Source: Apostichopus japonicus (taxonomy: Eukaryota; Echinodermata; Holothuroidea; Aspidochirotida; Stichopodidae). Taken from it: DNA of 64,000 bases. The notes beneath the pieces are model-generated. The model saw nothing but the letters and a program-made list of their open reading frames with translations. It made no database searches and was not told the DNA's origin. Position 1 is the first letter of the stretch. Each line of letters begins with the position of its first letter. The stretch lies in the NCBI RefSeq assembly GCF_037975245.1, contig NC_092580.1, positions 22,554,501 through 22,618,500 on the forward strand. The letters are read 5' to 3'. Shown piece by piece: positions 7,545 to 57,300 of this stretch. The position numbers were made by a program, and so were the translations under genes.

Positions 7545-7631
7545 ATGGAGGATTTTCATCTCTACAGTATCATTTTAAAAATCACCATTTTTGCATCGAT
7601 AGCTCTAAATGCAGCGAACTCTCAAGAATTG
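7545..7631 (+). CDS. Gene A exon 1: signal peptide
   Basis: Residues 1-29, ending in phase 0 at GAATTG before gtaagt. The core IILKITIFASIALNA is a typical hydrophobic signal, with likely cleavage near ANS/Q. Identical in nucleotide sequence to gene B exon 1. Confidence 0.92.
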
Positions 7632-12157: not shown

Positions 12158-15100
12158 ATTATGTATTGGTATCAAGCTGAGATATCCAGCTATGTCCTGA
12201 GTATATACTTTCATTTAGCTGGTCCGGTATACCATTACAGAAATCTTAACAGTTTATTGTTTTAAGTGGTCGTTATAGTGTAAAATTTGGCCTTACGCCA
12301 AAACGATTGTTGGCCAGATGGAATCAAATCCGCTAGATATTCTTAAATTGGCAACATGAGAATTACACCATAACTTACTGTGATAAAAGTGAGGTTATAG
12401 TAACAAATTACCTTACAAAACGCTATAAATTGATTTTCTTCTCTTTTGCTGTATATGGTTCAGACTGCCAAGTTCTCACAGTAATTGCAAACGATTATTG
12501 TAAGTCTTTGCAGCTTAAGCACTGAACATCTTAAGGCTGATGTGTTTTATTTCTTTTATATTATTTGTTAACAAAACACAGTAAAAAATCTCTTTCCCTC
12601 TAACACATATTATTGTGATTTATTTCAGTAATATTTTGATAAAATGTTTACTCTATATGCGACAGAGATATTACTCAAATAAATAACAGTAAGTTAGTTT
12701 TTATTGCTTTATATATACAAAGTTTCATATCTATCCAGAGAAAAATTTAAATGTCATATTCATATCAAGCGTTTCGATGCCGGAAGATAATACTAGGATC
12801 CAAACGTCATGTAATATAGGCTGACTTTTATATATTTAACTACACAGGCTTTAGAAGTAAATAAGCAGTTTGTTAACAGCACTTTTTCAAGCAAATATGA
12901 TACTTGATAGTAACGAAACGTGAGTAAAAATTGAAGCTTTCAAGTAATAAAACCTCAAATTAGAGCCAGAGCTTGAATATATAGAGCTAAGAGTAGATAT
13001 ATCAGCGTCTAGTGCATGTTATGTCGTCACCAGACTTTAAAGAGGTTTTTAAAACTTAAAAATGACTTACTGTTTGTAATTAAAACATAGTAAATAGGTA
13101 TCGTACCACCATTACAGTAATGTACATGCTCGTAAGGTTAACCTTAGAACAAAATGACTTAAAACGACCTACTGCAGTGCTTGTTTTGTCATATTTTCAG
13201 TCACCATTATCGCTTTTCTGTTTTTATGTGAAAGAACATAAATCAATGTATAGACCTACTAATGGTTTGAAAATATGGAGAATTGAAGGTGATATCATGA
13301 ATTTTTAGAAATTGTTTTGTTAAATGTGGATATTACTCCGAGTGAGCAAACTAAAATGATTGCGGTTCAGTATGCTGATATTACTCCTCTTCTAGCTCAA
13401 AATCTAAATGGTCATGATTTGGAAATTTGCAGGTGCCATGACAAGCCAAGCCCTCAGCTATCATTTGGTGGGTAGGACATAACGGGTGAAAACTTTTATC
13501 TATGCTTTAGTAAAATCACGAATTTAGTAGGTAAGTCAATGGAGCGATTAATTGTGGCACGACACCTATAGGAAATGCGAATGACATTTTACTACAGTGA
13601 TAGTTTTAGAACTATTACATTTTCCTCTTCCAAACCAAACAGTAAACTTACTTATCAATTCTTTCTGTGAGTGTTTCAAATCTAAACGTTCTCCTCAAAA
13701 TCTCTATAACTATTCCGATGAAGCTCATACACCCACCACGCCCCCCCCCCCCACCATGCGATTACATACTGGTACGCTAATTTTCATTGATCTTTTTTTT
13801 CAACACTGTACAAGAAACAAGTTGAAATACTTCAGTTTTGTTTTATAATTGCATATTATAGTATTATTATATCGATATAATCGCAAATGAAATCTTGTTT
13901 TCCTACTTTGTAGATCAGACATATATTGTGAATAACACAACAATTTACACCTACCTCCAAAATGCTTCCTCCATATCATATTTTGTTTACCGTACATTCC
14001 TTGCATATCCATACCGTATATATTGTCCTTTGGCAATGATGTATTCGTGTACAAATACTATCCAATTAAAAGAAAAATCCTTACACTTCTAGAGATAACC
14101 CGTAAGTCCTGCGATGCTACATTAAATAATATTAAAAAGCAAAATCCATAGATTTCTTTATCTTCGAATCAAGACAAAGGAACAAAGAATTCAAACCAGT
14201 TTTGGCTGCGCATCAAGTAAATTGGCGAAAATAACTGCCAGTTGATACAAATCTGTTAAAAAAGCCAGAACGGTTTGAGGCAAAGTTTGTTTGTCGCTAA
14301 TCGTAAACTCGATAACATTTTATGGCTTGTGGAAACAAGGAAAGGCAGTAACATTGTTATGTAAACTTTTCTATCCACTCTACACATTCTAATAAAAGCA
14401 GCTTTTAGGGAATAATATCTTTGTTTTTTCTCTCTTCAGGGAACTCCAAAAAGTGGAGGAAACAATCAAGGTGAGTGAAGCCATTTGTAAAAATGTTTGT
14501 TCTTTCTTAATATTCGCAATCAAAACTTCCAAACTATGTTAGTAATGTGCTTCGAATCATGATTTTTTTTAAATTTCTCCCCACAACGCTGAAAATGGAG
14601 ACTGAATCTTTACTTATTTCTATGCCAACTTGAATTCATTCAATCCACTCATCTCCTCTGCCCACATAATTTTCACACACCTAAGCATACGATAAAGGCA
14701 CGGGTTGATTTGCTCGGGTTTCCTTCAAATTCAATAATACCGCAGGTCAGTAAGTACGTTTGTTTCGTGTTTCAAGAAAATAACCTTTATGTACTTTCGA
14801 AATATCAGACGAAACCAAGCTTTCAGTAGTTTAAAAAAAAAAAAGAAAGATGAATAATTTTAAGTAATTTTGGCCGAATGTTGTTGACATGATAAATAAA
14901 TAAGATCACCGCAATTTTTTTTGGTGACCTATAAAGCGTAATGTAACTACAATATATATTATTACATAGTAATAAATTAATTACTATATTATGTCATGTT
15001 TGTAGAAGCATCGTACTTTTTCTATCAACGTTCCGAATATCCCCGAGACTGCGCAGAAGTCAAGGCCCAGTGCTCAAACAATAACTCGAGTGGTGTGTTC

Positions 15101-15217
15101 GTAATAAAACCAGAGGGATTTGATGAACCATTTGAAGTATTCTGTGAGAATGACATAGACGGCGGTGGTTGGACAGTAAGATACATTCTAAAAGTTGTTT
15201 TCCATTATTAATCAATC

Positions 15218-15304
<87 letters not shown>

Positions 15305-18300
15305 ACCAGAAACGGGATCTATCGTACGCAATACCAGTAGGACACATTTCCCACACTGCGCCCCACCCCGTACTCCCTCATCTCCTAACATTGGGATATA
15401 AATCCTTTCTTTGCTTTCAGTCCCGTATGCAACCGTGTAAGTATTAGACGAATAAAGTATCTCAGACTAAATGGTCTGCTATAAAGTTTCACATTTATCA
15501 ATAGTTTATCACGCTTTATCCATACTAACATGGCGCTTTTGCTAACTTACTTCCCTTACAAATAGAATATGAATTATTTAATTGAATGGGTGACCTTTGA
15601 ATGTCATCAGTATGGCCCCCAAATATACTAGAAAATCAGATTATTATCACCCATGCAATAATTTCCAAAAATATTAACTGCTACTGCATAAATCTTTATA
15701 CACACTGAGTGACTTAACTGTCTATATAACTAGTTCTCAATGGCTGGAATTTTGAATTATCAGCTCCTCCAGGAATGTACTTTGAAAACATCTAGCAATA
15801 CATTTTATATCATATTTCAGGTGATTCAACGACGTGTGGATGGCTCAATTAACTTTGATCGGAGCTGGTCAGATTACAAGGAAGGCTTTGGTTTTTTGAG
15901 AAGTGAGTTTTGGATCGGAAACCAAAAGCTGAGTTTCCTTACAAATCAAAAGAAATACCAACTTCGAATTGATTTCGAGAATTCTGCAGGGTCTTCGTTT
16001 TTCGCCACCTACGAAGCTTTTCGAATCAGTGATGAGTTTAGCAAGTTTCGTATAGTCAGTGTTGGTAAAAGCACCGGAACAATCGGTAAGTTTGAAATCT
16101 TAAACCAAAGGATATAGGGAGAAACACTTTGAACCTTCGAGTGAAACTGTCAGCACTTGTTAACCTCTCTCTTTGAAAAAGACGCTGCAATGAGTCCATT
16201 CACAGTCAGAAACGTTATTTTCATTTTTTAATTTATGTTCAACACGAACTAACACATGCAGCCTTGTTCTATTTCGTTCTCATTCTAGATTCCTTTATTG
16301 AAACTTGTCCAAGTAATATGGTTTTCAAGAATTGTTCCTGCCAAACGTCATGTGCGAACCCGGATGTCTGCGAGGATACCTGCAGCGCAGAGGATGACGA
16401 GTCTTGTATCTGTCCGGGAGGATATTTTATCAAAGGTGATACATGTGTACTCCCTCAAGCATGCGGTTGCTACTTAACAGGAAGAGGTGTTATTCCGGTA
16501 AGTCATTGTTTAATCGCTTTATATAAGAGATGGGAATGGGGGGTGGGGGGTGGGTGAGGGAAGGTGGGGAGGGGATTGGGCATTGAAATCACAGCAGTCA
16601 GCATGTAAACTAAAATCTTGTTGAAGTACATATATATACACGCTTCATCACATAGTTTAGCGCAACATGTATATTTGGTTGAAATGCCAACGGTAGTTAT
16701 AAATATTGAATCACAAAGTTGACAGTTTTAAAATCCATGACTGTTTTGCATGATGTTCATAGTTTTACTACATTTTTCAATCAGGACGGTAGTAGCTACG
16801 TCAACGATGATTGTACAGAACGTTGTTCATGCGAGGCAGGTACCTTGAGATGCGATTCCAGCTTCAGATGCGATGCCAATGCCGTTTGTGAGGAGCGAAG
16901 CGATACATTTGGATGCCGCTGCCGAGAGGGATTCGAAGGAGACGGAGAAAGTTGTACCCGCAATGAATTTACCGATTGTCATGATGTATATACATCTGGT
17001 TTAAGAAATGATGGCGTGTACAACATCAAACCAGCTGGTTGGCCTGGATCGGAATTTGAAGTTTACTGTGAGATGTCCAACAGAGGCGGTTGGACAGTAA
17101 GACATAATATTGGCTTTTAAAAGTAGAGTTTGAGGAGGGTGGGGCGGGAAGGGAAGAAGGTTATCCCAGCATGCATTTGCAAGTGTTTTCCTTCTTAACC
17201 CGAAGGAGTAAGAAAAAATATAGGTGTCTTATTAGGTGATATAGATATCGAAATGGGCGCACTTTTTCAAATGAAGATTCTTGGCGGCTCTTTATATGCA
17301 TGGCAACATGTGAAACATAGCATCAATGGACTGATTTCATACGTCTTCGTCTGATGAGTGTATGCATCCTGGCTACTTACGGTCAGTCGTAACAGTTTGC
17401 CTTCAAAGAAATCCACAAGTCAAGTTGTTGCGTAACCGGATCATCTGATATGACACATGGCCGATGGACAAAGGTTTATTTTTCATTGTACTATTTCCCT
17501 CTATCAGGTATTTCAGAGACGTCAAGATGGTTCTGTTGATTTTTACCGCACCTGGGACAGCTACAAGACTGGGTTTCCCGATACAGCGACTGGGGAATTA
17601 TGGCTAGGAAATGAAAAACTCTATCACATGACGAATCAAAAAAGCTATAAAATGCGCATTGATTTGGTAAACCGGGATGGCGTGTCGTATAATCTCAACT
17701 ATGACGCATTTCGCATCAGCAACGAAGCGAACAATTACAGATTAGAAACCCTTGGAAGCTTTACCGGTAATACAGGTGAGTGGATGGTTACAACTGCACT
17801 TTAAGTACTGCTGCTGATATCAGTTCCCACAGATGTTGGAAATAACTATGAGTGATGATACATGATATCTATCGATGACTTCTTTTCTTAATGGTTTGCG
17901 TCTTTTAAGTTACTTAGAAGAATTCATTTCATATTCATTATGGATGTTAAAAATTGATAAATTCAACTAATGTCTCAATGATGACCTGTGTCAAATATTA
18001 AACCATAGAAACTTTCCTGCTTAAATGTATTCAAACCTCTAGTTCAGGGGTGGGCAACCTTTTTGAATAAATGGGCCAGATATAAGGAGTGAAAAAAATT
18101 GACTGGGCAGCACCTAACCGACGACCTGCTGTTGATTTCATATCTTTCATTCCGAGGACTTTCAAGCAATATGTTTGTGTACTTAATCTGTATCCACAAA
18201 AATTAATGTTAATACACTACAGTTGGTAATTAATGGGGATAGAAGGCCTACCTGACAGTATCATAAATTCTAAGAAGCTGACTCAATTGTTTGTGATGAT

Positions 18301-19966
18301 GTAAACTAGATTGATTTTTTTCTTTTTCATGAGACATCTCACAGGCCGCAGCAAAATCACTGGCGGGCCGCATGTGGCCCGCAAGCCGTAGGTTGCCCAC
18401 CCCTGCAGTCTAGTTGCTTGAAGACTTTGTTATTATTATTATAATTATTATTATTCTTTCAAGTTTAGCGATTCTGACCAGTTGCGTTACTGTATATATT
18501 ATGAATAGATATATAGTTAGTTAAAGGATCAGCAACCCAACCGCCATCAATAGCCTTTACGTAGAGCTGGATATGAATAACTCTAAACCACTTACAAATA
18601 ATAGTAATAATGTACCTTCCGAAAGATTAGTACCACGTATTCCGTCATACACGAGAATTGACATCAAATATTCATACCTAAAGTTATTCAATCGTTTCAA
18701 AATATTTCAGACTAATTATTAGGGTTATTATGTACGCAGCTCACACGAAGAGCGTTCGTTCAATCTCTCACCATTTTCCCCCGTCCCCCTGTTTTGTACA
18801 TTAACCTTCATGTAGCATATATAGGCCATGTACGATACTCATTATAACGCCATAGTTGTCATTGTTGAAATGTCATAAAAGAGTTACTCGTAGACTCGAC
18901 AGAATGTAAACATTTCTTAATTTTTTCCAGTAACACTACTTTCAGGAACAGATAAATGTACATGAATAAAGGACGAAACTGAAAACATTGTTTAATTTTT
19001 ACGCCAGAGTCCTTCTGAAAAGAAAAAAAATGATTTTTGATATGTGTGATATGAAATGGATACAAAATTATATGAAATTATAAAACTCAAAAAATACCCC
19101 AACTTATTTTTTGAAGAAAGCGGTTCCATTTTCGCATAATAATTTGGAATCGGTCTCACATTGATAATATTCCTTCAAGTTAACTGTAGCTAACCCCTTG
19201 TAGTGACCTAATGATATCGGTGAAATGTAGGCTGGATATGACTTCGATTTACTTTAAAGTTTATACCAGTTTAGTTCGTTACTATATTAACCAAAGTCAG
19301 ACAACTTCATTTAAATCATATAACACATTCAGTTTTAATATTTTGGATACAAGCAATTGATTTCGGAGCATTTTTAAAAGTCCAAAGTTTAGATGGGATA
19401 AATCCCTTTGATATACACGAACGAAATGATGGAATAAATAAAAACATTATTTATGCGTTGGATAGGATATTTTTAACCATGAATATTCAACAGCATATAT
19501 TACAAAATCTGACAAACATAGATTTAAGCACAGTATTTATACAAGAATAATGCGTTGCATTCGCTGCGTGATTGCAAGACCGTGCACTGATTTAACGTGT
19601 GACATAACCACTTTTAAAGATATATATTAGAGATGAAGCAAAATGTCAAACAAAATTTGCGGAAAAACAATGCCGATGTAACATGTAGTCTACCATAACA
19701 AAACTGACGTGACTTTGGTTTCTCCATCTCTAGGGAACGACTACATGGCTTATCACCGAGGGAGAGACTTCTCAACACACGACAGCAGTGGTTATAACTG
19801 TGCATCTTATTATCATGGCGCCTGGTGGTACAATTATTGCTTTGATGCAAACCTCAACGGGGACTACAGCAGCAGCAGTTATACTGGTGTCGCTCTGTAC
19901 AATCGGGGCGCTAATACTTACTCATACAGTCTCAGATTTACGGAGATGAAAATACGACCTGTCTAA
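7545..19966 (+). CDS. FReP gene A: secreted fibrinogen-related protein, half-FBG / TIL / TILa / EGF / FBG
   Basis: Eight exons join to 524 aa: 7545-7631, 14440-14470, 15006-15175, 15821-16085, 16289-16497, 16785-17096, 17508-17775, 19734-19966. All introns are GT-AG. The protein has a signal peptide (1-28), a linker, an N-terminal FBG part (about 50-184, Cys55/Cys86), a TIL module with 11 cysteines (191-251), a TILa-like module (255-283), EGF (277-311, ending GFEGDGESC) and a complete FBG (314-524, Cys319/349 and 470/483, motif HGAWWY at 475-480). FRePs of this type are secreted lectins that bind acetylated sugars on microbes; that role is inferred from the family. Copy A has SSGYN where B and C have an Asp-rich DDDND loop, and Arg354 in the otherwise GGGWT motif. 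The chosen ATG has A at -3, G at +4 and starts the hydrophobic signal. The frame also stays open upstream to an ATG at 7434. Confidence 0.93.
9511..9600 (+). repeat. 30-bp minisatellite, 3 units
   Basis: Three units of the type ACTTTGAGACTAGATTCATA. The paralogous positions have five units in gene B and two in gene C. Confidence 0.85.
12102..12155. repeat. (TA)n microsatellite
   Basis: About 27 TA units in intron 1 of gene A. The paralogue in gene B is short (about 30833-30846) and it is almost absent in gene C. Confidence 0.95.
14440..14470 (+). CDS. Gene A exon 2: 31-nt linker microexon
   Basis: Encodes GTPKSGGNNQ plus the first base of Glu40. Acceptor ctcttcag, donor gtgagt. The length and both splice sites are kept in all three genes, which is the main support for such a small exon. 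Confidence 0.85.
15006..15175 (+). CDS. Gene A exon 3: start of first FBG
   Basis: Residues 40-96, phase 1 in and phase 0 out. Contains DCAEVKAQC, the NSS sequon at Asn66, the FVIKPEG and FEVFC strands and the GGGWT motif cut after Thr, a usual intron position in this exon family since exon 6 is cut at the same place. Confidence 0.94.
15223..15299. repeat. (TA)n microsatellite
   Basis: About 38 TA units in intron 3 of gene A; only a few units remain at the same place in B (33078-33088) and C (54053-54062). It accounts for the longer intron 3 in gene A. Confidence 0.95.
15821..16085 (+). CDS. Gene A exon 4: middle of first FBG
   Basis: Residues 97-184, starting VIQRRVDGSINFDRSW and ending at STGTIG, phase 1 out. 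Includes SEFWIGNQKL. Paralogous to exon 7. The next FBG segment, the calcium/ligand subdomain, is not in the 203-bp intron that follows. Confidence 0.95.
16289..16497 (+). CDS. Gene A exon 5: TIL cysteine-rich module
   Basis: Residues 185-254. The cysteine pattern C-x7-C-x-C-x3-C ... CICPGGYF ... GDTCVLPQACGCYL is that of a trypsin-inhibitor-like (TIL) module. TIL modules act either as protease inhibitors or as structural units in VWF-type proteins; no inhibitor loop can be assigned. An NCS sequon is present. Acceptor cattctag. Confidence 0.93.
16531..16580 (+). repeat. G-run tract in intron 5 (G-quadruplex type)
   Basis: Multiple runs of three to six G separated by short spacers on the coding strand, about 35 bases after the exon 5 donor. 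The position is conserved in B (34317-34365) and C (55291-55345). Confidence 0.7.
16785..17096 (+). CDS. Gene A exon 6: TILa-like + EGF + start of second FBG
   Basis: Residues 255-358, phase 0 at both ends. DDCTERCSCEAGTLRC is the short Cys module that follows TIL in zonadhesin/FCGBP-like proteins. It runs into an EGF module ending CRCREGFEGDGESC and then FTDCHDVYTSGLRNDGVY of the FBG. Arg354 replaces the first Gly of the GGGWT motif seen in B and C. Confidence 0.94.
17508..17775 (+). CDS. Gene A exon 7: middle of second FBG
   Basis: Residues 359-447, VFQRRQDGSVDFYRTW to SFTGNTG, phase 0 in and phase 1 out. A second possible donor (ggtaat) lies ten bases earlier, but the gtgagt donor is in the same place in all copies. 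Confidence 0.94.
17776..19733 (+). other. Gene A intron 7 (2.0 kb)
   Basis: Paralogous to intron 7 of B and C except for the transposon at 18045-18405. An ATT/TAT-rich run follows at 18430-18455. No exon is seen. Confidence 0.7.
18045..18405 (+). mobile_element. hAT-type MITE, 361 bp
   Basis: Ends are CAGGGGTGGGCAACCT and AGGTTGCCCACCCCTG, perfect terminal inverted repeats of the well-known hAT (Charlie/Tip100-like) type, with the GGCCGCATGTGGCCCGC subterminal block. An 8-bp target duplication is visible: CTCTAGTT (18037-18044) and GTCTAGTT (18408-18415), with two extra bases before the right copy. Genes B and C have the uninterrupted site (near 35824 and 56556), so the insertion came after the duplication. 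Confidence 0.9.
19734..19966 (+). CDS. Gene A exon 8: calcium/ligand subdomain and stop
   Basis: Residues 448-524. Contains MAYHRGRDFSTHDSSGYNC, HGAWWYNYC, NLNGDYSSSS and the C-terminus RFTEMKIRPV. The Asp-x-Asp calcium loop expected after FSTHD is missing here. Acceptor catctctag. Confidence 0.95.
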
Positions 19967-25272: not shown

Positions 25273-25359
25273 ATGGAGGATTTTCATCTCTACAGTATCA
25301 TTTTAAAAATCACCATTTTTGCATCGATAGCTCTAAATGCAGCGAACTCTCAAGAATTG
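25273..25359 (+). CDS. Gene B exon 1: signal peptide
   Basis: Same 29 residues and the same nucleotides as gene A. The sequence before the ATG differs (GTGCACAACTAATCGCA), yet keeps the upstream frame open to 25183. Confidence 0.92.
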
Positions 25360-31300: not shown

Positions 31301-34300
31301 GACAGACCAAGCCCTTGGCTATCATATGGTGGGTAGGACATACCGGTTGAAAACTTCTATCTATGCTTTAGTAAAATGACGAATTTAGTAGTTAAGTCAA
31401 TGGAACGCTTAATTGTGGTACGACACCTATGCGAATGCCATTTTACGTCAGCAATAGTTTTAGAACTATTACATTTTCCTCTTCCAAACCAAACAGTAAG
31501 CCTTCTGATCAATTCTTTCTGTGAGTGTTCCAAATCCAACCGTTCTCCCCAAAGTCACTATTATAACTATTCCGATAAAGCCTATTCACCCACTACACGT
31601 ACCTCCCGACACCATACGCTTACATACTGGTACGCTAATTTCATTGATTTTTTTCAACACTTTACAAGGACCAAGTTCAAATACTTTAGTTTTGTTTTAT
31701 AATTGCATATTCTAGTAGTATTATTATTTCGATATAATCGCAAATGAAATCTTGTTTTCCTACTTTTTAGATCAGACATATGTAGTGAATCACACAACAA
31801 TTTACACCTACCTCCAAAATGCTTCCTCCATACCATATTTTGTTTACAGTATATTATTTGCATATGCATACCGTATGTATTGTCCTTTGGCAATTATGCA
31901 TTCGTGTACAAATACTATCCAATTATTCCATTTAAAAGAAAATTCCTTACACTTCTAGAGACAACCGGTAAGTCCCGGCTGCGATGCTACATTAAATAAC
32001 ATTAAAAGCAAAATCCATATTTTTCTTTATCTTCGAATCAAGACAAAGGAACAAAGAATTCAAACCAATTTTGGCTGTGCATCAAGTATATTGGCGAAAA
32101 TAACTGCCAGTTGATACAACTCTGTTAAAAAGGCCAGAACGGTTTGAGGAAAAGTTTTTTTGTCGCTAATCGAAAAACCGATAACATTTTATGGCTTGTG
32201 GAAACAAGGAAAGGCAGTTACATTGTTATGTAAACTTTTCTATTCACTCTACACATTCCAACAAAAGAAGCATTTAGGGAATAATATCTTTATTTTCTCT
32301 CTTCAGGGAACTCCAAAAAGTGGCGGAAACATTCAAGGTGAGTGAAGCCATTTGTAAAAATGTTTGTTCTTTCTTAATATTCGCAATCAAAACTTCCAAA
32401 CTATATTAGTAATGTGCTTCGAATCATGATTTTTTTTTTAAATTTCTTCCCACAACGCTGAAAATGGAGACTGAATCTTTATATATTTCTATGCCAACTT
32501 GAATTCATTCAATCCACTCATCTCCTCTACCCACATGATTTTCACACATCTAAGCATACGATATAGGTAGGGGTTGATTTGCTCGGGTTTCCTTCAAATT
32601 CAATAATACCGTCGGTCAGTAAGTACGTTTGTTCCGTGTTTCAAATGATAATCTTTATGTACTTTCGAAATATCAGACGAGACAAAACTTTCAGTAGTTT
32701 TAAGAAAAACCAGATGAATAATTTTAAGTAATTTAGGACGAATGTTGTTGAAATGATAAATAAATAAGATCAACGCAATTTTTTTGTGACCTATAAAGCG
32801 TAATGTAACTACAATGTATATTCATGTAATAAATTAATTACTATATTCTGTCATGTTTGTAGAAGCATCGTACTTTTTCTATCAACGTTCCGAATATCCC
32901 CGAGACTGCGCAGAAGTCAAGGCCCAGTGCTCAAACAATAACTCGAGTGGTGTGTTCGTAATAAAACCAGAGGGATTTGATGAACCATTTGAAGTATTCT
33001 GTGAGAATGACGTAGACGGCGGTGGTTGGACAGTAAGATACATTCTAAAAGTTGTTTTCCATTATTAATCAATCTGTTATATATATATAAATAACTAATA
33101 ACCAGAAACGGGATCTATCGGACGCAATACCAGAAGGACACATTTCCCACACTGCGCCCCACCCCGTACTCCCTCATCTCCTAACATTGGGAGATAAATC
33201 CTTTCTTTCCTTTCAGTCCCGTATGCGACCGTGTAAGTATTAGACGAATGAAGTATCTCAGACTAATTGGTCTGCTTTAAAGTTTCACTTTTATCAATAG
33301 TTTATCACGCTTTATCCATACTAATATGGCACTTTGGCTAACTAACTTCCCTTACAAATTGATTATGAATTATTTAATTGACTGAGTGACCTTTAAATGT
33401 CTAAATGTCATCAGTATGGCCCCCAAATATGCTAGAAAATCAGATTATTATAACCCATGCAATAATTTCCAAAAATTTGAACTGCCACTGCATACTTGGT
33501 TATAAACAATGAGTGACTTTACTGTCTATATAGCTAAGTTCTCAATGGCTGGAGTTTTGAATTATCAGTTCCCCAGGAATGTACTTTGAAAGCATCTAGC
33601 AATACATTTTATATCTCATTTCAGGTGATTCAACGACGTGTGGATGGCTCAATTAACTTTGATCGGAGCTGGTCAGATTACAAGGAAGGCTTTGGTTTTC
33701 TGAGAAGTGAATTTTGGATCGGAAACCAAAAGCTGAGTTTCCTTACAAGTCAAAAGAATTACCAACTTCGAATTGATTTCGAGAATTCTGCAGGGTCTTC
33801 GTTTTTCGCCACCTACGAAGCTTTTCGAATCAGTGATGAGTTCAGCAAGTTTCGTATAGTCAGTGTTGGTCAAAGCACCGGAACAGTCGGTAAGTTTGTA
33901 ATCTTAAACCAAAGGATATATGGATAAACACTTTAAGCCTTCGAGTAAAACTGTCAGCACTTGTTAACCTCTCTCTTTGAAAGACGCTGCAACGAGTCCA
34001 TTCACATTTTCATTTTCTAAATTTATGTTCAACAAGAACTAACACAGCCTTGTTCTATTTCGTTCTCATTTTAGAATCCTTTATTGAAACTTGTCCAAGT
34101 AACATGGTTTTCAAGAATTGTTCCTGCCAAACGTCATGTGCGAACCCGGATGTCTGCGAGGATACCTGCAGCGCAGAGGATGACGAGTCTTGTATCTGTC
34201 CGGAAGGATTTTTTATCAAAGGTGATACATGTGTACCCCCTGAAGCATGCGGCTGCTACTTAACAGGAAGAGGTGTTATTCCGGTAAGTCATTGTTTAAT

Positions 34301-37300
34301 CGCTTTATGTAAGAGGTGGGAATGGGAGGGGGTTGGGGGTGAGGGGAGGTGGGGAGGGGATTGGGTATTGAAATCACAGCAGTCAGCATGTAAACTAAAT
34401 CTTGTTGAAGTACATATATATATATATATATATATACGCTTCATCACATAGTTTAGCGCAACATGTATATTTTGTTGAAATGCCAGCGGTAGTTATAAAT
34501 ATTGAATCACAAAGTTGACAGTATTAAAATCCATGACTGTGTTTTGCATGATGTTCATAGTTTTATTACGTTTTCTAATCAGGACGGTAGTAGCTACGTC
34601 AACGATGATTGTACAGAACGTTGTTCATGCGAGGCAGGTACCTTGAGATGCGATTCCAGCTTCAGATGCGATGCCAATGCTGTTTGTGAGGAGCGAAGCG
34701 ATACATTTGGATGCCACTGCCGAGAGGGATTCGAAGGAGACGGAGAAAGTTGTACCCGCAATGAATTTACCGATTGTCATGATGTATATACATCTGGTTT
34801 AAGAAATGATGGCGTGTACAACATCAAACCAGCTGGTTGGCCTGGATCGGAATTTGAAGTCTACTGTGAGATGTCCAACGGAGGCGGTTGGACAGTAAGA
34901 ACTAATATTGGCTTTTAAAAGAAGAGTTGGAGGAGGGTAGGGCGGGGAGGGAGGATATCCCAGCATGCATTTGCAAGCGTTTTCCTTCTTAACCCGAAGG
35001 AGAAAGAAAAAATATAGGTGTCTTATTAGGTGATATAGATATCGACATGGGCGCACTTTTTCCTAATGAAGGTTCTCGGTGGCTCTTTATATGGCAAAAT
35101 TTGAAACATAGCATAAATGGACTGATTTCATACGTCTTCGTCTAATGAGTGTACTTACGGTCAGTCGTAACACTTTGTCTTTAAAGAAATCCACAAGTAA
35201 AATTGTTGCGTAACCGGATCATCAGATATGACACATGGCCGATGGACAAAGGTTTATTTTTCATTGTATTATTTCCCCCTTTCAGGTATTTCAGAGACGT
35301 CAAGATGGTTCTGTTGATTTTTACCGCACCTGGGACAGCTACAAGACTGGGTTTCCCGATACAGCGACTGGGGAATTATGGCTAGGAAATGAAAAACTCT
35401 ATCACATGACGAATCAAAAGAGCTATAAAATGCGCATTGATTTGGCAAACCGGGATGGCGTGTCGTATAATCTCAACTATGACGCATTTCGCATCAGCGA
35501 CGAAGCGAACAATTACAGATTAGAAACCCTTGGTAGCTTTACCGGTAATATAGGTGAGTAGATGGTAACATTTGCACGCCAAGTGCTGCTGCTGCTGATA
35601 TCAGTTCCAAAAGATGTTGGAAATAACTATTAGTGACGATACATAATATCTATCAATGACTTCTTTTCTCAATTGTTTGCATCTCTTTGTAGCTTATAAA
35701 ATTTCAATTCATATTTCAGCATTGATGGAGGTTAAAAACTTATAAATTTAAATAATGTGTGAATGATGACCTGTTAAAAATATGACACCAAAGAAACTTT
35801 CTTGCTTACACTTATTCAAATCTCTAATTGCTTGAAGACTTCGTTAGTTTGTTTAAAGTAAAGCGATTTTGACCAGTTGCGTAATTGCATAAGTCATGAA
35901 GAGATATAGCTAGTTAAAGGAGCAGCAACCCAACCATCATCAACAGCCTGTACTTATAAAGCTTGATATGAATAGCTCTAAACCACTTACAAATAAAAAT
36001 GTCCTTTCCGAAAGATTAATACCACGCAATGCATCATACACTAGATTTGATATCAAATATTCAGACTTGATGTTGGCGAAAATGTTTCTTTGATTTTTGA
36101 GGTGTTATTTGCAGTTAAACATTACTCAGTTGTTTCAAAGTATCTCAGACAAATTGTTATGGTTATTAATCTACATGTAGTTTATATAGGCCATGTAGGA
36201 CATTCATTACTAAGCCATAGTTGTTATTTTTGAAATGTCATAAAAGAGTTGCTCTTAGACTCGACAGAATGTAAACATTTCTTAATTGCCTCCAGTAACA
36301 CTACTTTCAGGAACAGATAAATATACATGTATAAAGGACGAATACCAACTGATAACATTGCATAACGTTTACACCAGAATACTTCTGATAACATTTTTTT
36401 ATATGTGATATGAAATGGATACAAAATTGTGGAAATTGTAGAATTCCAAAAAAAACCCAACTCACTTTTCAAAGAAAACGGTTCCATTTTCTCATAATAC
36501 TAACCGTACTTACACTGAATAATCCTTCAAGTTAACTGTAGCTAACCCCTTGTATGATATCGGTGAAATGTAGGCCGGATATGACTTGAATTTACGATTT
36601 ACAATTTAGTTCGTGACTATATTAAACCAAAGTCAGACAACCTCATTTAAAGCATATATCACATTCATTTTTAATATTTTGGATAAAAGCAATTGATTTC
36701 GGACCTTTTTCAAAAGGCAAAAGTTTAGATGGAATGAATCACCTTAAGATACACGAAAGAATGATGTAACATATATAAACATGATGTATGCATTAGATAT
36801 GATAACTTAAAGTATGAATATTCAACAGCATAATATTATCATATTACAACTCTGACAAACATAAATTTAAGCACAGCATTCACACAACAATAATGCGTTG
36901 CATTCGGTGCGTGATTGTAGGACTCTTCGGTTTAATAACAAAAAAGAGGGGCTACCGTAGAAAGTCCTGCACTAATTTAACGTAAGACGTAACCATTTTA
37001 AAAGTCTTTGCTATAGATGACGGCAAAATGTCGAAGAGAATTGCGGAGAAACAATGCCGATGTAACATGAAGCCTACCGTAACAAAACTTACGTGAGTTT
37101 GGTTTCTCTTTCTCTAGGTTACGACTTCATGGCTTATCACCGAGGGAGAGACTTCACAACACACGACGACGACAACGATGGTAATTCTAATAACTGTGCA
37201 TCTTATAATCACGGTGCCTGGTGGTACAATTATTGCTATCGTTCAAACCTCAATGGGGACTACAGCAGCAGCAGTCATACTGGTGTCAATCTGTACAATT

Positions 37301-37365
37301 ATGACACTAGTTCTTATACCGAATATAGTCTCAGATTTACAGAGATGAAAATACGACCTGTCTAA
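25273..37365 (+). CDS. FReP gene B: secreted fibrinogen-related protein, half-FBG / TIL / TILa / EGF / FBG
   Basis: Eight exons join to 529 aa: 25273-25359, 32307-32337, 32863-33032, 33625-33889, 34075-34283, 34583-34894, 35286-35553, 37118-37365. Domain order and splice phases are as in gene A. It keeps GGGWT in both FBG parts and has THDDDNDGNSNNC in the last exon, matching the Asp-rich calcium loop of ficolin-like FBG domains. Differences from A in exons 1-7 are few (for example N38I, I90V, TSQKN for TNQKK, VPPEAC for VLPQAC), but the last exon differs at many positions around the ligand pocket. Intron 1 carries an insertion at about 29241-30189 that A and C lack. All cysteines of the TIL, EGF and FBG modules are present. 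Start chosen as in gene A (G at -3, G at +4). Secretion and lectin function are inferred. Confidence 0.93.
27241..27384 (+). repeat. 30-bp minisatellite, 5 units
   Basis: Units begin at 27241, 27271, 27301, 27331 and 27361, each like GTACTTTGAGACTAGATTCA. With a 30-bp period one frame stays open and reads repeated YFETRFIS; this is a by-product of the repeat, not a protein. Confidence 0.9.
29241..30189 (-). mobile_element. B-specific insertion ending in a hammerhead-like motif
   Basis: At this place genes A (11415) and C (50340) read straight through TTTAAATTAAAACAA-type sequence, while B has about 950 extra bases. It includes a C12A9-type run at 30019-30040 and ends with the CTGAAAAAGATCC...GAAACGTCGGGC motif (minus strand). 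Probably a truncated retroelement; no reverse transcriptase frame is visible. Boundaries are approximate. Confidence 0.45.
30141..30184 (-). ncRNA. Hammerhead-like motif, second copy (degenerate)
   Basis: Minus strand: GCCT, CTGAAAA, hairpin GATCCTGCTAGAATC with one mismatch, GAAACGTC, GGGC. Stem I bases differ from the copy at 1436-1475 but can still pair (with one G-U). The core G8 is A, so this copy is likely inactive. Confidence 0.35.
32307..32337 (+). CDS. Gene B exon 2: linker microexon
   Basis: GTPKSGGNIQ plus one base; 31 nt, acceptor ctcttcag and donor gtgagt. Confidence 0.85.
32863..33032 (+). CDS. Gene B exon 3: start of first FBG
   Basis: One base and one residue (I90V) differ from gene A over 170 nt. 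Donor gtaaga after GGGWT. Confidence 0.94.
33625..33889 (+). CDS. Gene B exon 4: middle of first FBG
   Basis: VIQRRVDGS to STGTVG. Differs from A at TSQKNYQ and GQSTGTV. Phase 1 donor gtaagt. Confidence 0.95.
34075..34283 (+). CDS. Gene B exon 5: TIL module
   Basis: The split codon gives Glu instead of Asp at residue 185. All 11 cysteines are kept; CPEGFF and VPPEAC replace CPGGYF and VLPQAC. Confidence 0.93.
34317..34365 (+). repeat. G-run tract in intron 5 of gene B
   Basis: Same place as in gene A, with a different arrangement of G runs. A (TA)n tract follows at 34413-34435. Confidence 0.7.
34583..34894 (+). CDS. Gene B exon 6: TILa-like + EGF + start of second FBG
   Basis: Same length as in A, with CHCREG for CRCREG and the standard SNGGGWT. 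Confidence 0.94.
35286..35553 (+). CDS. Gene B exon 7: middle of second FBG
   Basis: VFQRRQDGS to SFTGNIG, with LANRDG and ISDEANN. The frame ends in the intron at a TAG soon after the donor, as expected. Confidence 0.94.
35554..37117 (+). other. Gene B intron 7 (1.6 kb)
   Basis: Paralogous to intron 7 of A and C, without the MITE of A. Nothing else is recognised. Confidence 0.7.
37118..37365 (+). CDS. Gene B exon 8: calcium/ligand subdomain and stop
   Basis: 77 residues of gene A become 82 here. THDDDNDGNSNNC has the Asp-rich calcium loop; the pocket reads HGAWWYNYCYRSN and VNLYNYDTSSYTEYS. Ends RFTEMKIRPV. Confidence 0.95.
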
Positions 37366-45309: not shown

Positions 45310-45396
45310 ATGGAGGAGTTTCATCTCTACAGTATCATTTTAAAAATCACCATTTTTGCATCGATAGCTCTAAATGCAGCTAACTCTCAAGAATTG
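45310..45396 (+). CDS. Gene C exon 1: signal peptide
   Basis: As in A with one change, Asp3 to Glu. Donor gtaagt. Confidence 0.92.
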
Positions 45397-51300: not shown

Positions 51301-54300
51301 TTCTCACCGTAATTGCAAACGATTATTGTATGTCTTGAAGTTTTTGCAGCTTAAGCACTGAACATCTTAAGGCTTATGATTTTTATTTCTTTCACATCAA
51401 TTGTTCACAAACACGGTAAAAATCTCTTTCCCTACTAAAACATATTATTGTGATTTATTTGAGTACTATTTTGATAAAATATTTACTCTATAGGCGACAG
51501 AATAAATAGTACTCAAATAAATAATAATAAGTCAGTTTTAATTGCTTTAATGGACAAAAAAATCATACCTATACAGAGAAACGTTTAAATGTCATATTGA
51601 TATAAAGCTAGATGGCCTGACTTTTCGATCCCGGAAGATAATACTAGGATCGAAACGTCATGCAATATAGGCTAACTTTTATATATTAAGCTACACAGGC
51701 TTTAGCAGTAAATGATCAGTTGTTAAAAGCCCTTTACTATCAAAGATAATAGTTGATAGTAATGGAACGTGAGTAAAAATTGAAGCTTGCAAGTAATGAA
51801 CCTGCAAATTAGAGCCAGGGCTTGAATATATAGAGTTAAAAGTAGATATATCAGCGTCTAGTAAATGTTCTGTCGTCACCAGACTTTACAGAGGTGTTTT
51901 AAACTTAAAAGTCACTTACCGTTTGTAATTAAAACATATTAAATAGGTATCGTACCACCATTACATTAATGTACATCTGCTCGTAAGGTTAACCTTAGAA
52001 CAATATGACTTAAAACGACCTACTGCAGTGCTTGTTTTGTCATATCTTCAGTCACCGTTATCGCTTTTCTGTCTTTATTTTAAAGAGCATAAATCAATGT
52101 ATAGACCTACAAATGGTGTAAAAAAGGTGATATCATGAATTTTTAGAAACTATTTAATGGTTAAATGTGGATATTACTCCGAGAGAGAAAACGAAATGAT
52201 TGCAGCTCAGTTTGCTGAAATTACTCCTCTTCTAGCTCACTATCTAAATAGTCATGATATGGAAATGTTCCGGTGCCATGACAGGTGAAGTCCTCAGCTA
52301 TGATTTGGTGGGTAGGACATACCGTTTGATAACTTCTATCTCTGCTTTAGTAAACTGAAGAATTTATTACATAAGTCAATGGAACGATTAATTGTGGTAC
52401 GACACCTATAGGCAATGCGAATGACATTTTACGTCAGCATTAGTCATAAATTATATTTTCCTCTACCAAACCAAACAGTAAACTTACTGATCAATTCTTT
52501 GTGTGAGTGTTCCAAATCTAACCGTTCTCCCCAAAGTCACTACAACTAATCCGACGAAGCCCATACACCCACCACACGTCCCTCCCCTACCATACGCTTA
52601 CATAATGGTACGCTAATTTTCATTGATCTTTTTTTCTTTCAACACTTTACAAGAAACATGTTGAAATACTTCAGTTTATAATTGCATATTCTAGTAGTAG
52701 TAGTATTTCGTTATGATCGCATACGAAATCTTGTTTTCCTACTTTGTAGATCAGACATATGTTGTGAATAGCACAACGATTTACACCTACCTCCAAAATG
52801 CTTCCTCCATACCATATTTTGTGTACTGAATATTCCTTGCATATACATGCCGTATATATTGTCCTTTGGCAATTATGTATTCGTGTACAAATACTATCCA
52901 ATTCTTCCATTTAAAAGAAACATCCTTACACTTCTAGAGACAACCGGTAAGTCCTGCGATGCTACATTTAATAACATTCAAAAACAAAATCCATATTTGT
53001 CTTTATCTTCGAATCAAGACAAAGAAACAAAGAACTCAAACCAGTTTTGGCTGTGATCAAGTAAATTGGCGAAATAACTGCCAGTTGATACAAGTATGTT
53101 TAAAAAGCCAGAACGGTTTGAGGCAAAGTTTGTTTGTCGCTAATCAAAAAAATCGATTACATTTTATGACTTGTGGAAACAAGGAAAAGCAGTCACATTG
53201 TTATGTAAACTTTTCTATCCCCCTACCACCCTCAACAAAGATATTTTTAGGAACAATATCTTATGTTTTTTCTTTCCTCAGGGAACTCCAAAAAGTGGAG
53301 GAAACAATCAAGGTGAGTATACAGCCATTTGTAAATACTTATGTTCTATCTTGTTATACGCAATCCAAACTTCCAAACTATGTTAGTAATGTGCTTCGAA
53401 TAATGAACATTAACAACAAAAAAGGAGACTGAATCTTTGTTTATTTTTTATTTCTTTGCCGACTTGAATCCATTCGATCCACTCATCTCCTCTGCCCACA
53501 TAATTTTCACACCCCTAAGCATACGATATAGGTAGGGGTTGATTTGTTCGGGTTTCCTTCAAATTCAATAATACAGTCGGTCAGGAAGTACGTTTGTTCC
53601 GTGTTTCAAGAGAATAATCTTTATGTACTTTCGAAAAATCACACGAAATCAAACTTCCAGTAGTTTAAAAACAAAAACAGATGAATAATTTTAAGTAATT
53701 TTGGACGAATGTGGTTGAAATGATAAATAAATAAGATCACTTTTTTTGTGACCTATTAAGCGTAATGTAACTACAATGTATATTCATTACATAGTAATAA
53801 ATTAATTACTATATTATATCATGTTTGTAGAAGCATCATACTTTTTCTATCAACGTTCCGAATATCCACGAGACTGCGCAGAAGTCAAGGCCCAGTGCTC
53901 AAACCATAACTCGAGTGGTGTGTTCGTAATAAAACCAGAGGGATTTGATGAGCCATTTGAAGTATTCTGTGATAATGACATAGACGGCGGTGGTTGGACA
54001 GTAAGATGCTTTCTGAAAGTCTTCTTAAGTTTTTTCATCTTTTAATCAATCTTATATATATATAAACATGGAACTAATCTGTACAACCAGAACCGGGATC
54101 GACCGTAAATGATACCATCAGGACACAGTTTCCCACTCCGCCCCACCCCGTACTCCCTCACCTCCTAACATTGGGAGATAAATCCTTTCTTTGCTTTCAG
54201 TCCCGAATGCGACCGTGTCAGTATTAGACGAATAAAGTATCTCAGACAAATCGGTCTGCTTTAAATTTTAAATTTTGTTAATAGTTTATCACGCTTTATC

Positions 54301-57300
54301 CATACTAATATGGCACTTTGGCTAACTAGCTACCCATAAAATAGATTATTGATTATTAATTGATTGACCTTTAAATGTCGTTAGTATGGCTCCCTAATAT
54401 GCTAAAAAATCAGATTATTATCACCCATGCAATAATTTTCAAACATAGTAACTGCCACTGCAAAATTGGTTATACACACTGAGTGACTTAACTGTCTATA
54501 TAAATAGTTCTCAATTGCTGGAATTTTGAATTATCAGTTCCTCCAGGAATGTACTTTGAAAACATCTAGCAATACATTTTCTATCACATTTCAGGTGATT
54601 CAACGACGTGTGGATGGCTCAATCAACTTTGATCGGAGCTGGTCAGATTACAAGGAAGGCTTTGGTTTTCTGAGAAGTGAATTTTGGATCGGAAACCAAA
54701 AGCTGAGTTTCCTTACAAATCAAAAGAAATACCAACTTCGAATTGATTTCGAGAATTCTGTAGGGTCTTCGTTTTTCGCCACCTACGAAGCTTTTCGAAT
54801 CAGTGATGAGTTCAGCAAGTTTCGTATAGTCAGTGTTGGTCAAAGCACCGGAACAGTCGGTAAGTTTGTAATCTTATACCAATGGATATAGGGAGAAACA
54901 CGAGTAAAACTGTCAGCACTTGTTAACCTCTATCTTTGAAAGACGCTGCAATGAGTCCATTCACAGTCAGAAACATTATTTTTATTTTCTAAATTTATGT
55001 TCAACACGAACTAACACAGCCTTGTTCTATTTCGTTCTCATTCTAGATTCCTTTATTGAAACTTGTCCAAGTAACATGGTGTTCAAGAATTGTTCCTGCC
55101 AAACGTCATGTGCGAACCCGGATGTCTGCGAGGATACTTGTAGCGCAGGGGATGACGAGTCTTGTATCTGTCCGGAAGGATTTTTTATCAAAGGTGATAC
55201 ATGTGTACACCCTCAGGCATGCGGCTGCTACTTAACAGGAAGAGGTGTTATTCCGGTAAGTCATTGTTTAATTGCTTCATATAAGAGTTGCGAGGGGGGT
55301 GGGGATGGGTGAGGTGAGGGGAGGTTGAGATGGGAGGGGATTGGGCATTAAAATCACAGCAGTCAGCATGTAAACTAAGTCTTGTTGAAGTACAGCTATA
55401 TACAGGCTCTATCACATAGTTTAGCGCAACATGTATATTTTGTTGATATGCCAGGGGTAGTTATAAAAAATTTAATCACAAAGTTGACAGTTTTAAAAGC
55501 CCTGACTGTGTTTTCATGATGTTATATTTTTACTACGTTTTCTTACCAGGACGGTGGTAGCTACGTCAACGATGACTGTACAGAACGTTGTTCATGCGAG
55601 TCAGGTACCTTGATTTGCGATTCCAGCTTCAGATGCGATGCCAATGCCGTTTGTGAGGAGCGAAACGATACATTTGGATGCCACTGCCGAGAGGGATTCA
55701 AAGGGGACGGAAAAAGTTGTACCCGCAATGAATTTACCGATTGTCATGATGTATATACATCTGGATTAAGAAATAATGGCGTGTACAACATCAAACCAGC
55801 TGGTTGGCCTGGATCGGAATTTGAAGTCTACTGTGAGATGTCCAACGGAGGCGGTTGGACAGTAAGACCTAATATTGGCTTTTTAAGAAGAATTGAAGGA
55901 GGGCGAGGGGTGCGGGGAGGAAGGAAGGAAGAAGAAATTCACAAGTCAAGTTGTTCCGTAACCGGATCATCTGATATGACACATGGCCGATGACAAAGGT
56001 TTATTTATCATTGCATTATTTCCACCTTCAGGTATTTCAGAGACGTCAAGATGGTTCTGTTGATTTTTACCGCACCTGGGACAGCTACAAGACTGGGTTT
56101 CCCGATACAGCGACTGGGGAATTATGGCTAGGAAATGAAAAACTCTATTACATGACAAATCAAAAGAGCTATAAAATGCGCATTGATTTGATAAACCGGG
56201 ATGGCGTGTCATATAATCTCAACTATGACGCATTTCGCATCAACAACGAAGCGAACAATTACAGATTAGAAACCCTTGGTAGCTTTACCGGTAATACAGG
56301 TGAGTGGATGGTAACAACTGCACTTTAAGTACTGCTGCTGCTGATATCAGTTTCAACAACTAACTGTTAAAGATGATACATTATATCTATGATGACTTCT
56401 TTTCTTAATTGTTTGCGTCTCTTCAGTTACTTAGAAGAATTCATTTCATATTCATTGATGGATGTTAAAAATTGATAAATTCAACTAATATCTGAATGAT
56501 GACCTGTATAAAATATTAAACCATTGAAAATTTCTTGCTTAAAATTATTCAAACCTCTAGTTGCTTGAAGACTTCGTTATTCTTATCATTTTTTTTCAAG
56601 TTTAGCGATTCTGACCAGTTGCGTAATTGCATATATTATGAATATATATAGTTAGTTAAAGGATCAGCAACCCAACCGTCATCAATAGCTTATACGTAGA
56701 GCCGGATATGAATAACTCTAAACCACTTACAAATAATAAAAATTGTACTTTCCGAAAGATCAGTACCAAGGATTCCGTCATACACTGGATTTGACATCAA
56801 ATATTTATACTTGAAGATGGCGAAAATGTTTGATATTTGAGATGTTTTATGCAGTTAAAACATTACTCAGTTGTTTCAAACTATTTCAGACTCATTATTA
56901 GGGTTATTGTGTACGCAGCACACACGAAGAGCCTTCGTTCATTCTCTCACCAGTTTTTTCCCGTCCCTCTTGTTTTATACATTAACCTGCATGTAGCCTA
57001 TATTGGCCATGTAGGATACTTATTATAACGCCATAGTTGTCATTGTTGTAATGTCATAAAAGAGTTACTCGTAGACTCGACAGAATGTAAACGTTTCTTG
57101 ATTATTTCCAGTAACACTACTTTCAGAAACAGTTAAACATACGTGTATAAAGAACAAATAACAACTGAAAACATTGCATGACGTTTACACCAGAGTACTT
57201 CTGATAAGAAAAAAAAAGATTTTGCATATATGTGATATGAAATGAATACAAAATTATGAAATTGTAGAACTCAAAATACCCCAACTTACTTTTAAAAGAA

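Follow-up and report, generated by a model that had tools for sequence, protein, structure and literature searches.

What keeps neighbouring gene copies alike over seven exons while the eighth differs? The question is raised by a tandem array of lectin-like genes with fibrinogen-related domains (FReDs) in the sea cucumber Apostichopus japonicus. The array begins in a stretch of 64,000 nucleotides on contig NC_092580.1, hereafter the window (C20:22554501-22618500), and was compared with the genome at large (671.58 Mb searched, 35 contigs). The reading that we favour, with a probability of about 0.57, is that the array provides a germline set of lectin-like proteins in which a shared scaffold would carry individual pockets, with pocket-focused change in exon 8. 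Most likely, exon 8 diversity would have two causes, less homogenisation of this exon and amino-acid change focused on the pocket.

Results

Models of genes A, B and C were rebuilt from the sequence. Each has 8 exons with GT/AG borders at every intron, giving open frames of 524, 529 and 535 amino acids. Exon 8 lengths of 233, 248 and 266 nt, reported in a preliminary description of the window, were reproduced by these models, and the exon-8 residue strings quoted there for A, B and C were all found in the translations. The array comprises five copies rather than three. Exon-8 matches just beyond the downstream window edge (C20:22633366-22633626 and C20:22653954-22654211) belong to copies D and E, which have complete open 8-exon frames in the adjoining 38.0 kb and exon 8 lengths of 263 and 260 nt. 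Exon 8 recurs along the array at a spacing of 17.4–20.9 kb. The exons of A, B and C, in window positions, are as follows.

Gene A exon 1: 7545..7631, + strand; hydrophobic N-terminus, signal-peptide-like by eye
Gene A exon 2: 14440..14470, + strand
Gene A exon 3: 15006..15175, + strand; start of FReD 1
Gene A exon 4: 15821..16085, + strand; middle of FReD 1, with no P subdomain after it
Gene A exon 5: 16289..16497, + strand; cysteine-rich, TIL-like by eye; start of TILa
Gene A exon 6: 16785..17096, + strand; end of TILa, EGF, start of FReD 2
Gene A exon 7: 17508..17775, + strand; middle of FReD 2
Gene A exon 8: 19734..19966, + strand; 233 nt, P subdomain with the predicted recognition pocket; both calcium aspartates lost
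Gene B exon 1: 25273..25359, + strand
Gene B exon 2: 32307..32337, + strand
Gene B exon 3: 32863..33032, + strand
Gene B exon 4: 33625..33889, + strand
Gene B exon 5: 34075..34283, + strand
Gene B exon 6: 34583..34894, + strand
Gene B exon 7: 35286..35553, + strand
Gene B exon 8: 37118..37365, + strand; 248 nt, variable
Gene C exon 1: 45310..45396, + strand
Gene C exon 2: 53282..53312, + strand
Gene C exon 3: 53831..54000, + strand
Gene C exon 4: 54595..54859, + strand
Gene C exon 5: 55047..55255, + strand
Gene C exon 6: 55550..55861, + strand
Gene C exon 7: 56032..56299, + strand
Gene C exon 8: 57935..58200, + strand; 266 nt, variable, longest Asp/Tyr loop

Exon 8 was confirmed as the variable exon of otherwise similar genes. 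Nucleotide identity to A was 97.7–100% for exon 1, 93.5–100% for exon 2 and 95.2–99.4% for exons 3–7, and dropped to 82.4% (B) and 77.1% (C) in exon 8. Pairwise nonsynonymous divergence (dN), estimated by the Nei–Gojobori method (NG86), was 0.133–0.153 in exon 8 versus 0.015–0.025 in exons 1–7. Pooling all 10 pairs among A–E gave a synonymous divergence (dS) of 0.165, dN of 0.153 and a ratio of 0.93 for exon 8, compared with 0.071, 0.022 and 0.31 for exons 1–7. The preliminary description had named equal dS across the exons, together with an exon 8 dN/dS well below 1, as the result that would count against diversification; neither was seen.

In a Pfam scan, protein A matched Fibrinogen_C in two stretches (327.5 bits), the better covering residues 317–523 and positions 3–220 of the 221 in the profile. 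TILa was also matched, and two EGF models fell under the cut-off (EGF-type match 27 bits vs 28.5). The scan returned no immunoglobulin and no collagen-like match for protein A, and no collagen-like stretch is visible in the A–E translations. Judged by eye from the N-terminus, the A–E proteins look secreted. In all five copies FReD 1 (exons 3–4) ends where the P subdomain would start, and the cysteine-rich exon 5 comes next. FReD 2 (exons 6–8) is complete, with exon 8 as its P subdomain. A query made of exons 6–7 of copy A and mostly copy-B exon 8 aligned over its full length with FIBCD1 (4m7f, E 1.8e-51) and tachylectin 5A (TL5A; 1jc9, E 4.4e-36), and over 183–184 residues with ficolin-1 and -2. 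Separately, exons 3–4 have the intron phases of the exon 6–7 half (15006-16497 in A, homologous exons 3–5 of B and C), and the cysteine-rich exon standing in the place of the P exon has the same entry phase, as though a single exon had been exchanged.

Chromosome C9 carries large FReD arrays, of which two were picked for their many regularly spaced hits in genome searches. From array 2 (C9:16.17-16.72 Mb) 33 loci were retrieved, 30 parsed and 27 intact; three had no parsed exon 8 (L013, L021, L022) and three were left out for early stops (L016, L034, L036). Among the intact copies, exon 7+8 DNA distinguishes 21 types and exon-8 protein 20. From array 3 (C9:20.70-21.17 Mb) 19 loci were retrieved; the exon 8 analyses drew on 14 of them and those of exon 7 on 11; L040, L045, L051 and L054 were set aside as other subtypes, and L044 had no open exon 8 listed. 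The array-2 pairs L008/L033, L010/L025 and L011/L026 (C9:16.2-16.7 Mb) have identical exons 7 and 8 and 0 differences in ~600 flanking bases, although ~290–440 kb apart, which would reflect either recent block duplication or assembly duplication.

The available text of the FIBCD1 structure report (PMC3908420) places the calcium and acetyl (S1) sites in the P subdomain. They involve D393, D395, the carbonyls of S397/N399, the C401–C414 disulfide that links the two sites, Y405, the N413–C414 cis bond, H415, Y431, A432 and W443. These positions were mapped by sequence alignment only, the register being uncertain at FIBCD1 columns 424–441. The calcium aspartates D393/D395 were kept in 38/39 compared exon-8 proteins (A–E 4/5, distinct array-2 proteins 20/20, array 3 14/14), copy A alone having lost both. 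Diversity had initially been placed at the calcium and ligand loops. This holds for the ligand-loop residues and the rest of the calcium loop, which do vary, and not for the calcium aspartates, which every copy but A retains. At the sequence level, Cys401 and Cys414 are both present in 5/5 A–E copies and in 14/14 array-3 proteins. Array 2 departs from this pocket disulfide pattern, because Cys401 is replaced in 20/20 distinct proteins.

The acetyl-pocket set Tyr405/His415/Tyr431/Ala432 is not conserved in A–E. His415 is replaced in 5/5 copies (F, Y, A, Y, Y), Tyr405 is kept only in A, C and D (N in B, L in E), and the Tyr431/Ala432 region is shorter, its register uncertain. Acetyl binding, which the preliminary description mentioned for these loops in ficolins and TL5A, is not to be assumed here, given the replacement of the pocket His415. 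The framework around the pocket is stable: WWY, NLNG and the C-terminal EMKIRPV are invariant across the five copies, and 39/39 proteins of the three arrays retain the motifs WW and LNG.

The mapping onto a ficolin-type pocket proposed at the outset was made through the FIBCD1 alignment, and variable residues were enriched at pocket and calcium-loop positions. A mask of 24 pocket/calcium-site columns (FIBCD1 residues per the available text of PMC3908420, each plus or minus 1) was compared with the other 58 exon-8 columns. Mean pairwise difference in A–E was 0.458 within the mask versus 0.191 outside (2.4 times), with circular shifts as large in 2/81 cases. Corresponding values were 0.338 vs 0.178 for array 2 (1/81) and 0.235 vs 0.103 for array 3 (2/81); on a repeat run the values within the mask were 0.311 and 0.229, with unchanged shift counts. 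Removal of the 18 uncertain columns 424–441 gave 0.515 vs 0.130 for A–E (0/63), 0.325 vs 0.171 for array 2 (2/63) and 0.275 vs 0.082 for array 3 (1/63).

Site models were fitted with our own code rather than an established package, with branch proportions fixed from M0. In array 2 (20 distinct copies), exon 7 showed dS 0.117 and dN/dS 0.19, and exon 8 dS 0.40 and dN/dS 0.37. Within exon 8, the ligand loop (between WW and LNG) reached a dN/dS of 1.42 versus 0.29 in the remainder. M8 was favoured over M8a (p=0.00022), and three sites scored >0.9: those near FIBCD1 399 and 413 belong to the pocket mask, and the third is part of the C-terminal loop. For array 3 the contrast between exon 8 (dN/dS 0.38) and exon 7 (0.34) was small; M8 was again favoured over M8a (p=0.00038), and its four sites map close to FIBCD1 398, 399, 403 and 441-443. 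In A–E exon 8, one codon scored >0.8; it adjoins the position of the pocket His and encodes D, R, T, S and D in copies A to E, respectively. Positive selection was unsupported in exons 1–7 (M8 vs M8a p=0.26), and the M8 sites listed there are meaningless since this comparison is not significant. The pairwise homoplasy index (PHI) test for exon 8 gave p=0.058 in array 2 and p=0.57 in array 3, making recombination a lesser worry there than in A–E.

In A–E the length of the calcium loop varies between 6 and 17 residues. NAY codons (Tyr, His, Asn, Asp) make up 78% of this loop and 30% of the other exon-8 codons. In array 2 the ligand loop varies instead, from 8 to 16 residues, with 45% Tyr and 65% NAY versus 28% in other exon-8 codons (calcium loop unparsed for L029, L031 and L035 in these composition counts). 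Because both loops are NAY-rich and length-variable, A–E and array 2 appear to have lengthened different rims of the same pocket using the same kind of codon. Array 3 has fixed loop lengths and a ligand loop without Tyr/NAY richness. The motif RGANTY occurs in exon 8 of A and E and not in that of B, C or D. Several array-2 copies (e.g. L008, L014, L028) gain extra cysteines within the Tyr-rich ligand loop.

The nearest relative of a copy shifts along the A–E unit: intron 3 is closest for B–E (0.03) and B–D (0.04), introns 5–6 for C–D (0.02–0.03) and A–B (0.06–0.07). The PHI test gave p=0.001 for the whole coding sequence and p=0.003 inside exon 8. Together these results indicate that the copies exchange sequence, with the 3′ block spared more often than the preceding exons, and the homogenisation originally suggested for the rest of the gene was thereby supported. 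Mean noncoding divergence (K) among A–E was 0.06–0.12 for introns 2–6 and 0.16 for intron 7. Among A, B and C, K was 0.16–0.23 in the last 500 bases of intron 7 and 0.12–0.26 in the first 500 of the 3′ flank; means that include E are inflated here through poor alignment.

At finer scale, C and D differ by 0–5% per 150-base bin across intron 7 and ~900 bases of 3′ flank, except for 8.7% just upstream of exon 8, and by 11–13% in the middle of exon 8. Divergence between A and B is 16% beside exon 8 and falls to 2–8% at 300–900 bases downstream. Exon 8 was compared with its own flanks in 31 close pairs (flank difference up to 9%) among 416 pairs in the three arrays, pairs that are not independent. 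A universal divergence peak centred on exon 8, as suggested by C/D, was rejected, being present in a minority of these.

Other features of the locus

Intron 1 contains a tandem repeat with a unit of ~30 bases, at 9513-9602 in A (3 units), 27240-27383 in B (~5) and 47939-48003 in C (2). Intron 7 of A holds a miniature element at 18045-18405 with inverted ends (CAGGGGTGGGCAACC and its inverse), flanked on both sides by TCTAGTT and not present in B or C at the matching place; we take it to be hAT-like. Elsewhere on C20, two 989-codon open frames lie ~31 kb apart (C20:18443595-18446393 and C20:18474619-18477417). Each has three ATP-guanido phosphotransferase domain matches, and both presumably resemble echinoderm flagellar creatine kinase. 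In a check of the species by arginine kinase, one exon of this genome was identical in translation to residues 250–314 of PDB 3ju5, an A. japonicus protein; fragments of two other genes proved to be a creatine kinase and a paralogue. A search for a PSP94 gene gave no match either in this genome or in its controls and so has no bearing on the species.

Discussion

Several observations weigh against pocket-focused change as the source of exon 8 diversity. Exon-8 dS and the K of adjoining noncoding DNA are also raised, so less homogenisation accounts for much of the raw excess, which to that extent is not selection on the protein. Noncoding DNA shows a clear 5′/3′ contrast between A and B and a weak one in pairs that include C, where introns 1–3 already stand at K 0.10–0.19; the 5′ flank stands at 0.10–0.16 among A, B, C and E, alignment of D being poor in that part. 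An exon-8 excess over own flanks at uncorrected p<0.05 was seen in 6/31 close pairs for synonymous and 2/31 for nonsynonymous changes. For A–E exon 8, M8 over M8a is borderline with five copies (p=0.052), M7 vs M8 gave p=0.14, and M1a, with 57% of codons neutral, was not rejected against M2a (p=0.15). Recombination within this exon moreover violates the single-tree assumption of the site models. Finally, early stops interrupt exon 8 in 3/30 parsed array-2 copies. Diversifying selection on the pocket, as first proposed, is accordingly upheld in part: the dN/dS contrast, the pocket enrichment and the site tests of arrays 2 and 3 speak for it, and the borderline A–E tests and the excess shared with dS and noncoding DNA speak against it. 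Of the two causes, the preliminary description named pocket-focused change and treated homogenisation as background.

Selection might alternatively keep differences against homogenisation, copies with a converted exon 8 being lost and an island of divergence, synonymous sites included, being left behind. Such selection against conversion has been proposed for other duplicated genes. It would explain the exon 8 peak of C/D amid similar flanks, where the synonymous excess is significant (p=0.0015), and the decay of A/B divergence downstream from exon 8. Synonymous excess at p<0.05 is nevertheless lacking in 25/31 close pairs, although 12 of the 31 are almost identical (flanks differing by no more than 0.8%) and for the most part carry little information. 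A genome search for a donor of the C exon 8 found none better than D (90%), and outside the C20 array only 44–85-base pieces, which also counts against this explanation. We regard it as tentative, at clearly less than even odds.

Somewhat more doubtful is a conversion landscape combined with relaxed constraint. Exchange tracts would reach exon 7 and seldom cross intron 7, old 3′ differences would persist, and the loops would be tolerant of change under no diversifying selection. In line with this, mean exon-8 dS in array 2 (0.46) is close to the K of the last 250 bases of intron 7 (0.47) and the first 250 of the 3′ flank (0.45), and ~57% of A–E exon-8 codons fit an omega of 1 under M1a. Exon 8 relative to exon 7 dS is lowest in array 3 (0.219/0.16), where intron 7 is only ~0.4 kb, and higher in array 2 (0.40/0.117), but A–E are hardly higher than array 3 (0.165/0.109). 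For A–E alone, relaxed constraint is a serious rival. Across the three arrays it sits less well with the evidence: in arrays 2 and 3 the site tests prefer an omega class above 1, its sites falling within the pocket or next to it, variable sites follow a pocket defined in another protein (FIBCD1), and WW, LNG and, with one exception in 39 proteins, the calcium aspartates are retained. Nor does it sit well with the pairs C/D, L007/L020 and L014/L028, which differ more in exon 8 than in their own flanks. An assembly artefact, with mosaic copies from collapsed or mis-joined haplotypes, is very improbable: the array-2 pairs with no differences are what duplicated haplotigs would give, but A–E frames are intact with consistent splice sites, the pattern recurs in three arrays, and the published A. 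japonicus assembly (671.60 Mb, 34 scaffolds, 23 chromosomes), in the available text of its report, was built from HiFi reads and Hi-C data, and 99.94% of it was anchored (PMC10344927).

Under the favoured reading, of a shared scaffold with individual pockets, exons 1–7 would be kept alike through inter-copy exchange and purifying selection. Exon 8, as the recognition face of FReD 2, would be free to diverge, and a few positions within or next to the pocket would be driven to do so. One common body would thus bear varied pockets, each protein recognising a different surface glycan or molecule. New loop lengths probably arise by slippage in NAY codon runs, followed by point changes among the one-step neighbours Tyr, Asp, Asn and His, and short conversion patches probably shuffle exon-8 motifs such as RGANTY. 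Exon-8 variation may alter ligand specificity, the targets may be microbial, and selection may oppose exon-8 homogenisation.

In snails, FREP (fibrinogen-related protein) diversity lies mainly in the immunoglobulin part and is partly somatic. Biomphalaria FREPs are, in the literature extracts available, likewise multigene fibrinogen-domain proteins of unusual diversity; unlike them, protein A has no immunoglobulin match, and A–E diversity is germline and located in the fibrinogen pocket exon. Diversity of the sea urchin 185/333 family arises from repeats and element patterns rather than a lectin pocket. That family (SpTransformer), as described in the extracts available, is likewise echinoderm, clustered, highly diverse and immune, with a protein unrelated to A–E. 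Ficolin, FIBCD1 and TL5A resemble A–E in the FReD alignment and in both pocket cysteines (5/5 copies). They differ in that S1 residues vary among A–E and that in A–E TILa and EGF domains are added and FReD 1 is truncated; unlike ficolin, protein A has no collagen match in the Pfam scan. The accessible part of a Drosophila survey reports considerable diversity at positions matching the TL5A P-domain site (PMC2429915).

FREP expansion in A. japonicus is already known. The available text of the genome paper (PMC5638244) describes FREPs mainly on one linkage group, including one cluster of 21 tandem genes, with expression raised in early and middle regeneration. This is very probably the same family, and that text covers expansion and regeneration, not pocket-exon variability or homogenised scaffolds. 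Our literature search on fibrinogen-related proteins (positive selection, hypervariability, gene conversion, sea cucumber) found no earlier report of pocket-exon hypervariability in FReD arrays, within a reach that excluded most subscription journals. An immune function of A–E is suggested by the family and, by analogy, by a FREP of another sea cucumber, which rises in the intestine after lipopolysaccharide (LPS) in the available text of PMC2702171.

A bolder proposal, which we consider speculative and on balance improbable, is a germline variable-lectin system with many FReD genes, homogenised constant exons and one differing recognition exon. Two arrays would independently have grown different length-variable, Tyr/Asp/Asn/Ser-rich pocket-rim loops, antibody-paratope-like, from slippage-prone NAY runs, giving an anticipatory repertoire that dispenses with somatic rearrangement.

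The recurrence of the pattern across three arrays within a single genome opens the question of germline diversification through loop-restricted selection to direct test. The results also suggest that the expanded FREPs of the sea cucumber may serve in recognition; the genome paper (PMC5638244), in its available text, reads the expansion as a regeneration trait. Exchange that fixes the scaffold while one exon is spared would offer an invertebrate without antibodies a route to keeping a large inherited set of pockets.

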